From Singulisphaera sp. (GTDB taxonomy: Bacteria > Planctomycetota > Planctomycetia > Isosphaerales > Isosphaeraceae): a DNA stretch of 35,443 nt. Shown here in pieces: positions 29,038 to 32,471 of this stretch (within the stretch, counting starts at the first letter, position 1; the number at the start of each line of letters is the position of its first letter). The notes under the pieces are model-generated. The model ran no database searches. It was not told the origin of the DNA and saw only the letters and a list, made by a program, of their open reading frames with translations. Made by a program: the position numbers and the translations under genes. The stretch lies in assembly GCA_027451445.1 (NCBI GenBank), contig DAIDJG010000534.1, forward strand, positions 1 through 35,443, read 5' to 3'.

Positions 29038-29104
29038 AGTCCGCAGGCTTTGGAGTGCGGGGGCTTGCTCCCGCTTTCGTAGCGCCGTCGCGCTCAGAAA
29101 GGGG
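29038..29104 (+). repeat. Interspersed palindromic repeat, partial copy
   Basis: Bases 29038-29079 are identical, in reverse complement, to 32430-32471 (42 of 42; contains GGAGTGCGGGGGCTTGCTCC). The copy continues through a GC-rich loop into the first bases of the second arm (AGAAAGGG) and stops where adaptor-like coding sequence begins. In the full copy at 32386-32471 both arms are present. Confidence 0.85.
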
Positions 29105-29557: not shown

Positions 29558-31352
29558 GTGGATTCCCCTTGAGGGGCGTACCATCGGCCGACGGCGAAGG
29601 TCGGGCAACACGCCGAGGAGTTCGGCGGACGAGGTGCCGGCGAGAACTGTCATCGAGAACGAAAAACTTACCACCCAAGAATCGCGCGAAACACCGGAAA
29701 ACACCGTGTCGGGCCACGTTCGCGAGTCGAAAAATCTAGCAGCTTACTAGGAGTATATAGATAGGGACTCGATGCGGGATGAGGAAGGAAGACGCGCGGG
29801 ACTGCTCTTCGTTAGCGAACCATTCAAGAGGGACGAGGGAGGACTTCGGGACTTGGTTATCCCTGATCCCCTAAAAGCCGCCCGAGCACAAGCGCAAGAC
29901 CGATGTTAGACAATCTTTCGAAAATAGGTGCGGACAACAGCTTTGCACAACGACAACTCGGTCGCGACGACCGCCCAAGGATGAGAGCGCGCGAGTACGT
30001 CGTCGATTCGGCTACTCGGAGCCCCAAGACCCACAAGGGTTTGCGATTCCGAGTAAGGGTTTTGGGCGGGCTATTCGTAGGGCCGGGGGATAAGAATTTA
30101 TGTAAGCGATCACCAATTGGTGCGCGGAGATGGAAAACGTTGGGTGGCCGCGGCCGAGCCCACAAGGGCGATGCCCCCCGGACGTTTGGGCCGCCCGCAC
30201 GGACCGGGGCATTGCCCTGCGGGTTCGAGCCCGGCCACCCGCCCGTGCACCTATTCGGTGGTCTGTACGAAGATATATTTCGGATATTTCGTAGGCGCTC
30301 GCCGGTTGGTGCGCGAAGCGGGAAAACGTTGGGTGCCTGGGGTCGAGCCCGCAGGGCGATGCCCCCGGACGTTTGGACCGTCCGCACGGACCGGGGGTAT
30401 CGTCCTGCGGGCTCGACCTCAGCCAACCGCTCGTACACCTATTCGGTGACCTGCACGGGGGTATATTTCGGATATTTCGTAAATCTCGGAGCACTTTTCA
30501 TGCACCTAGTCGGCGGCCTGCACGGGGGTATATTTCGGATATTTCGTGAATCTCGTAACGCTCGCCCATTGGTACGCGAAGATGGGGAACGTTGGGTGGC
30601 TGGGGTCGCGCTCGCAGCGACCCGCCCTCGACGGGCATCTGCTGAAGACATAGCGCGCACCAACTGGCGAGCGCTAAGGATTTCTCGTAAATCTCGTAAG
30701 CGCTCCCCTGTCGGCGCGAGAAGACGGGAAACTTGAGAGGGCTGGCGTCAGATCCGCAAGGGTGGCGCCTCTGGGTGTTTGGGTTATCCGCACAGACTGA
30801 GGGGATATCGCCCTTGCGGGCTCGACCCAGCCGCTCACCCTCGACGGGCATCTCCTAATGACATAGCGCGCATCAACTGGCGAGTTCCAGGAAATTTATG
30901 GCGAGATACGCGGCAGCAGAGGACAAATGAGGGTGTACATCGGTCGAAAAGCCATGCGGTTTGAGCGGGACATTGGCTCCCCCAGCCGCACTTGCGAGAA
31001 TCGCACGTTCCGAACGACGCGAGGGGACGCGTTTTGTTTTTCGGCGACTCAGCGGCTTGCAACTTCGCCGTCGTCGCGTGAGAAGCAGAATTCGGCAGAA
31101 TCACTCGAAGACTCGGTAGAGTCGTTGGTCCATACGGAGTTACCGCCTTCCGGATGGAGTTCCGAGTGCACCTCGGCGATTCGGAAGTCGGAATTCCGTG
31201 GGGGAAGCACGACAGAGGCAACGGCGGGACCGCACTCAATGCGGGTGGGACCGTCAACCCTCGGCTCGATGGTTGCGGGCTGATGCGCTTGCGATATCCT
31301 GGTGCCGTCCCCCCCTTTGGCCAACCGCGCGAAACGCCCCCGGGAGCCCACG
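29558..31352. other. 1.8-kb non-coding region
   Basis: Between the adaptor remnant and the deacetylase gene no frame looks like a gene: translations are Arg/Pro/Gly-rich and repeat every 150-200 bases. 29558-30100 holds scattered hairpins (for example TACTCGG, 30013-30019, with CCGAGTA shortly before 30060). 30104-30890 is the hairpin array listed separately. 30900-31352 shows nothing recognisable and must include the deacetylase promoter. Confidence 0.65.
30104..30890. repeat. Tandem array of long imperfect hairpin units
   Basis: Four to five degenerate units start near 30104, 30292, 30555 and 30697, each opening with GCGCTCGCC(G/A)(G/T)TTGGTGCGCGAAG-like sequence and AACGTTGGGTGG. In unit two, arms 30341-30368 and 30391-30418 pair over 28 bases with two mismatches, around an inner CCGTCCG/CGGAC stem. 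Unit one pairs 30141-30180 with 30204-30240, and unit five pairs 30739-30773 with 30799-30832. Unit four has lost most of its hairpin. Linkers TATATTTCGGATATTTCGTA recur at 30274, 30462 and 30529, and are part of three about 50-base copies starting near 30245, 30432 and 30499. A CCTCGACGGGCATCT block with ACATAGCGCGCA occurs at 30626 and 30839. No protein is encoded. Confidence 0.8.
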
Positions 31353-32321: not shown

Positions 32322-32385
32322 CGAGCTGGGAGCGACGCTTTCATCGGCCTACGCGCGAAGTCGAATGAGCCCGACAGGGCTCCTT

Positions 32386-32471
32386 GGAGTGCGGGGGCTT
32401 GCTCCCGCTTTCGGACCGCGATCGCGCCGCGAAAGCGGGAGCAAGCCCCCGCACTCCAAAGCCTGCGGACT
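32386..32471. repeat. Interspersed palindromic repeat, full copy
   Basis: Arms 32386-32413 (GGAGTGCGGGGGCTTGCTCC plus CGCTTTCG) and 32430-32457 are perfectly complementary over 28 bases around a 16-base GC-rich loop. The right side continues to 32471 and is identical, inverted, to 29038-29079. A small GAGCCC/GGGCTC hairpin (32367-32382) precedes it. It begins 65 bp after the deacetylase gene and may end that transcript. Confidence 0.9.

Follow-up and report, generated by a model that had tools for sequence, protein, structure and literature searches.

Target duplications are usually absent from REPs. These palindromes measure 20-40 bp (PMC3733652). Among prokaryotic MITEs, MITEAba12 duplicates 9 bp (PMC6382973), and the hallmarks of IS66-family insertion sequences are ends of 20-30 bp starting with GTAAGCG and an 8-bp duplication (PMC11946415).

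The window (the whole stretch of 35,443 nucleotides analysed here) is contig 534 of an Isosphaeraceae genome of 10.9 Mb in 622 contigs, and contains an array of hairpins which is very probably a composite MITE: gene-less palindromic units of about 190 bp, moved in trans and generating 8-bp duplications, most likely by a transposase of the IS66 type. Dispersed copies, defined ends, 8-bp duplications, an empty site and recurrence in a second genus together argue for MITEs, mostly composite. The traits found were small size (790 bp here; about 190 bp in the solitary form), absence of genes, 24-bp inverted ends, a duplication of fixed length (8 bp), dispersal and an empty site.

Layout of the array

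The true limits of the array were given by the element ends and the target duplications (30094-30899; Table 1). The original prediction had placed repeated hairpin units at 30104-30890, and they were found: a 72-nt left module was present in four copies (starts 30107, 30296, 30559 and 30701), with left ends of the type GTAAGCGCTCGCC.GTTGGTGCGCG at 30102, 30291, 30555 and 30696, together with three copies (65-67 nt each) of a linker carrying ATATTTCGGATATTTCGTA, two of them in tandem (67 bp) between modules 2 and 3 and a related one before module 2. All three linkers contained TATATTTCGGATATTTCGTA, whose fuller form, TATATTTCG-GATATTTCG-TAAATCTCG, had a period of 9 bases, and they were, as predicted, better conserved than the hairpin arms. 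Ordered units of about 190 bp had also been proposed; a tandem period of 188 bp was indeed seen across 30117-30481, but the module spacing was irregular (189, 263 and 142). The predicted hairpins were stable, all four units folding much more stably than shuffled sequence (z values in Table 1), but their size had been underestimated at up to 28 paired bases: in units 1 and 2 the core hairpin measured about 98 bp, its arms reaching up to 38 bp at 87% complementarity. Modules 3 and 4 were shorter or degenerate with respect to the near-perfect palindromes of modules 1 and 2. The open reading frames across the array gave zero Pfam matches and included no recognisable gene.

Table 1. Coordinates of the array and its parts in the window.
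Feature	Position	Strand	Remarks
Entire 790-bp array, very probably a composite MITE made up of four hairpin modules plus linkers	30102..30891	+	outer inverted ends and 8-bp duplication
Left target-site duplication GAATTTAT	30094..30101	.	7/8 identical to 30892-30899; position set by the family-wide boundary
Right target-site duplication AAATTTAT	30892..30899	.	paired with GAATTTAT
Outer left terminal inverted repeat GTAAGCGATCACCAATTGGTGCGC	30102..30125	+	3 mismatches against consensus GTAAGCGCTCGCCNGTTGGTGCGC
Module 1 hairpin core, 99 nt	30142..30240	.	fold z -5.6
Module 2 left inverted repeat	30291..30314	+	1 mismatch against consensus
Module 2 hairpin core, 98 nt (the array's best palindrome)	30331..30428	.	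fold z -8.9; inverted repeat I4
67-bp linker, two copies, 9-bp-periodic motif TATATTTCG GATATTTCG TAAATCTCG	30431..30553	+	repeat family D2
Module 3, short hairpin, inverted ends on both sides	30555..30677	+	fold z -4.0
Short linker separating module 3 from module 4, GATTTCTCGTAAATCTC type	30678..30695	+	repeat family D3
Module 4, degenerate hairpin; left end 30696, outer right end 30867-30891	30696..30891	+	fold z -3.5

Two further hairpin families were observed near the array. A palindrome of the type TTGGAGTGCGGGGGCTTGCTCCCGCTTTCG... (119 matches in the same genome) was present at 32384-32459 and at 29038-29104, the latter copy lying between two pieces of an open reading frame and perhaps interrupting a gene. 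An intergenic hairpin of the type TTATCGGAAATTCGGAACCCCTT...AAGGGGTCTTCGATTCCGAATA was located beside the linker repeat at other loci (L141, L130, L144, L145 and L149), and a form related to it lay a short distance upstream of the array (30012-30060).

Copies, ends and target duplications

Copies elsewhere had been named as something to look for, and related sequences turned up on some 38 contigs of this genome; in addition, 7 of the 41 family genomes scanned contained the 24-bp end (zero for the reversed control). Many of the matching contigs terminated exactly inside the repeat, indicating that the family breaks the genome assembly. The smallest form was a solitary hairpin of about 190 bp with GTAAGCGCTCGCCAGTTGGTGCGC... 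ends and a perfect 8-bp duplication (solitary hairpins on contigs C419 and C223). Composites of two or more modules were located on C176, C253, C272, C306, C358, C425, C475, C570, C589 and C610, and composites of 400-790 bp likewise bore outer 8-bp duplications. Positions 30101-30677 of the window were 97% identical to the copy on C176, which had unrelated flanks and its own duplication, AAAAACTT. The linker motif was also found free of hairpins, within a separate intergenic repeat of the same genome. A pattern scan of public genomes, from which records of this genome were possibly excluded, detected the core hairpin in only one Isosphaeraceae MAG.

The mobile unit of about 190 bp ended in GTAAGCGCTCGCCAGTTGGTGCGC on the left and CCTAGCGCTCGCCAGTTGGTGCGC on the right. 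The MITE ends were GTA-AGCGCTCGCC on the left and, read inwards, CCT-AGCGCTCGCC on the right. The inverted end pattern had 70 matches (vs. 5 for the reversed control), and a longer version had 41 matches in the same genome (vs. 0 in the control). Of 19 end pairs, 8 had an 8-bp duplication matching at 7 or more of its positions, whereas shuffling gave 1.5 on average and did not reach 8 in any of 10,000 rounds; once the pairs whose left site was the linker motif had been removed, the count was 6 of 16 (shuffled mean 0.69, maximum 5). Duplications were perfect on C419 (GGCAGATT), C176, C425 (AAAAACTC) and C253 (TAAATTTC), and near-perfect on C306 (GGATTCTT/GAATTCTT) and in the window; C272 and C589 shared the duplication GATATTTC. 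At the scored offset the other 11 of the 19 pairs lacked a duplication, owing in part to the automatic choice of outer ends and in part to decay. Wrong outer ends were chosen in this way at C610, C274 and C570; duplications recognised by eye at C610 (GATAGTTC/GATAGTTC) and C570 (GATATTTC/GATATTTC) were left out of the statistics. Exact 8-base matches were commonest when both sides were offset by 3 bases, and far fewer exact matches extended to 9 or 10 bases; the element boundaries are thereby fixed. Module 4 of the window was without a duplication of its own, and the outer duplication enclosed all four modules, as fits movement of the whole block. Judged from their sequences, composites carry a single outer duplication.

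When the sequences on either side of the C272 composite were joined through a single copy of the duplication, they aligned to contig C598 over 504 columns (74% identity, ungapped at the junction). C598 contained the linker motif without the hairpin and is a paralogous, not an orthologous, empty site. No readable orthologous empty site was found for the locus of the window, the only close relative of its PIG-L neighbour being in genome G005 in a different gene context. A spanning self-match for another locus (L012) was discarded from the empty-site searches.

Some variants were recorded among the other loci. Sister MITE families with ends GTAGGCGCCCAACAGTTCGTGCGC / CCTGGCGCCCAACAG and a 102-bp hairpin (GGGTGGCCGGGGCAGAGGAGGCCGGAAGGCC...) were present at L031, L032, L035, L038, L041, L047 and L077, sometimes recombined into the same arrays. 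At C125:34452-34842 (L146), about 230 bp of AT-rich sequence with CCACCCCTTCCAA ends split the MITE hairpin; this insert may be a further mobile element sitting within the palindrome.

The family recurred in G027, a near-complete genome of another genus, as clean MITEs of about 150 bp with duplications CTTTTTTT and AAAAAAAG and the same asymmetric GTA/CCT ends, which are conserved across genera. MITE-linker-MITE composites of 400-427 bp in this genome had the outer duplications AAAAAAAG, AGTTTTTC and AAAAAAGG. The G027 elements were without the long GC-rich hairpin, which therefore seems dispensable for mobility. Their linker was a different 9-bp-periodic palindrome (TTAACCACGAATGACACAAATGACACGAATGAA...TTCGTGTCATTTGTGTCATTCGTGGTTAA); its TTCGTGTCATTTGTGTCATTCGTGGTTAA arm had 71 half-copies in G027, mostly as inverted pairs, and 20 in G010 (loci L190-L196 and L187, respectively), and by our own count 8 of 10 G027 MITE loci were at most 300 bp from one of about 38 linker palindromes. 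The association of this repeat with MITE copies was strong.

Transposase and rival explanations

Complete IS66 copies with PF03050 transposases were found in G010 and G027, with ends GTAAGCGCTCG / GTAAGCGTTCG and 8-bp duplications (GGGGTGCC, GCGGACGA and TCAAGAGA). The outer left 11 bp of the MITE (GTAAGCGCTCG) were identical to these IS66 ends of related genomes and contained the GTAAGCG start, which was absent from most right ends (CCTAGCG). As the left end and the length of the duplication equal those of IS66, an IS66-type transposase probably mobilises the MITEs. This is held as no more than probable because the right end starts with CCT (with variants), vs. GTA on both sides in most IS66 copies examined; because the inner end part CCAGTTGGTGCGC had no match in any of these copies, which end GTAAGCGCTCGAGATTCCCA / GTAAGCGCTCGAAATAGCCA; and because no autonomous partner was found: elements with the full 24-bp end in the same genome and in 45 family genomes were MITE-like or one-ended, none was detected at the six IS66 matches of the same genome, and no long element with one GTA and one CCT end was present among the fetched loci. 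The same observations, the GTA/CCT ends kept across genera against GTA/GTA in readable IS66 copies and the missing full-end partner, would suit a transposase of another family, for instance one whose right end is naturally CCT, with the 11-bp agreement due to convergence. This is conceivable and distinctly less likely than IS66-type mobilisation, given that the identity over 11 bp occurs within the same bacterial family and goes with the same 8-bp duplication. One candidate of this kind, an ISAzo13 transposase (PF07592, E 2e-145; L189:2790-4013 in G010) located beside one such end, was rejected: its own ends (AGGCGGCTCGCCAAAATAAC...) differ, so that it had merely inserted into a MITE relic.

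The original prediction had left three options for the array (mobile hairpin elements inserting side by side, a structured RNA cluster or a protein-binding array), of which the first was borne out by the dispersed copies, inverted ends, 8-bp duplications, paralogous empty site and second genus. It is extremely unlikely, for all the stability of the folds, that the array is a structured RNA cluster maintained through selection for pairing. The Rfam search of the array gave no match at gathering score, and solitary and composite copies were present at unrelated sites. Among 24 aligned hairpins (1045 pair cells), 868 cells were unchanged and 15 carried Watson-Crick changes on both sides. The arm differences had been thought to preserve structure; one-sided changes dominated instead (156 vs. 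21 both-sided cells), comprising 50 GT, 45 AC and 61 transversions, and as distinct events GT wobbles (23) were about as frequent as AC mismatches (21). GT was not spared over AC, and selection for RNA pairing is thus unsupported; such strand-symmetric change is what neutral decay of a DNA palindrome would give. The compensatory changes looked for did exceed the shuffled means (8 pairs and 15 cells vs. 3.9 and 6.3), an excess which relatedness can yield, and 8 of the 15 cells belonged to a single column pair. The hairpins are under no detectable selection as RNA, and fold stably as a side effect of the palindromic DNA.

Host bidirectional terminators or protein-binding sites, with a putative REP/BIME-like function, would agree with the intergenic position and the long GC-rich hairpins; this reading is quite unlikely, as transposon-type ends delimit the units and the copies decay individually, and the only protein binding that needs to be invoked is that of the transposase, expected at the ends. 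Plain tandem duplication by recombination or replication slippage, without transposition, could account for the 188-bp period and for the linker units in tandem at 67 bp. It is very unlikely, because dozens of unrelated sites hold the same modules with inverted ends and target duplications, and the perfect duplications of the C176 and C425 copies contradict it; slippage may nevertheless have multiplied modules inside a composite.

Proposed growth of the chains and comparison with known systems

For the composite MITE, the following course of events is proposed. Insertion of the palindrome of about 190 bp at AT-rich sites, with duplication of 8 bp, is shown by the sequences; the transposase would be supplied in trans. 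The linker holds a site which looks preferred, GATATTTC^GTAAATC, so that units would land beside linkers and beside each other; the outer ends of neighbours would then mobilise the hairpin-linker-hairpin block as one composite. Chains would grow, since composites carry linkers that may be targets themselves. After insertion the hairpins decay. More tentatively, the MITE might seed itself, its own 9-bp-periodic AT-rich linker (TATATTTCGGATATTTCG here and TTCGTGTCATTTGTGTCATTCGTGG in G027) serving as the landing site and giving rise to ever longer mobile chains. Were the linker such an element-borne preferred target, it would offer a simple model for the growth of mobile hairpin arrays.

The array belongs to a well-known class of parasite DNA, of which it is a new case, unusual in forming chains. 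The family accounts for a conspicuous repeat at which the assembly of its host genome breaks, corrects the RNA reading of the array, and adds to the planctomycetes a MITE family with the unusual habit of travelling in chains.

Like other prokaryotic MITEs (e.g. MITEAba12, PMC6382973), the array is short, gene-less and transposase-free, with imperfect inverted ends, many copies and target duplications in AT-rich sites; it differs from them in its ends, in its almost perfect interior palindrome of about 98 bp and in its many multi-module composites with linker repeats. IS66-family insertion sequences share the left end GTAAGCGCTCG and the 8-bp target duplication, but the units of the array are without transposase genes, their right end is CCT and the inner end CCAGTTGGTGCGC is unmatched. 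With REP, BIME and REPIN sequences the array has in common intergenic palindromes and mosaic arrays, whereas its units are about 190 bp long, bear 24-bp inverted ends and are flanked by 8-bp duplications. As in composite transposons, where two IS copies move the intervening DNA, two end-bearing modules flank the linker and each block has one outer duplication; in the array, however, gene-less hairpins take the place of the IS copies, and nothing but AT-rich linker is carried between them.
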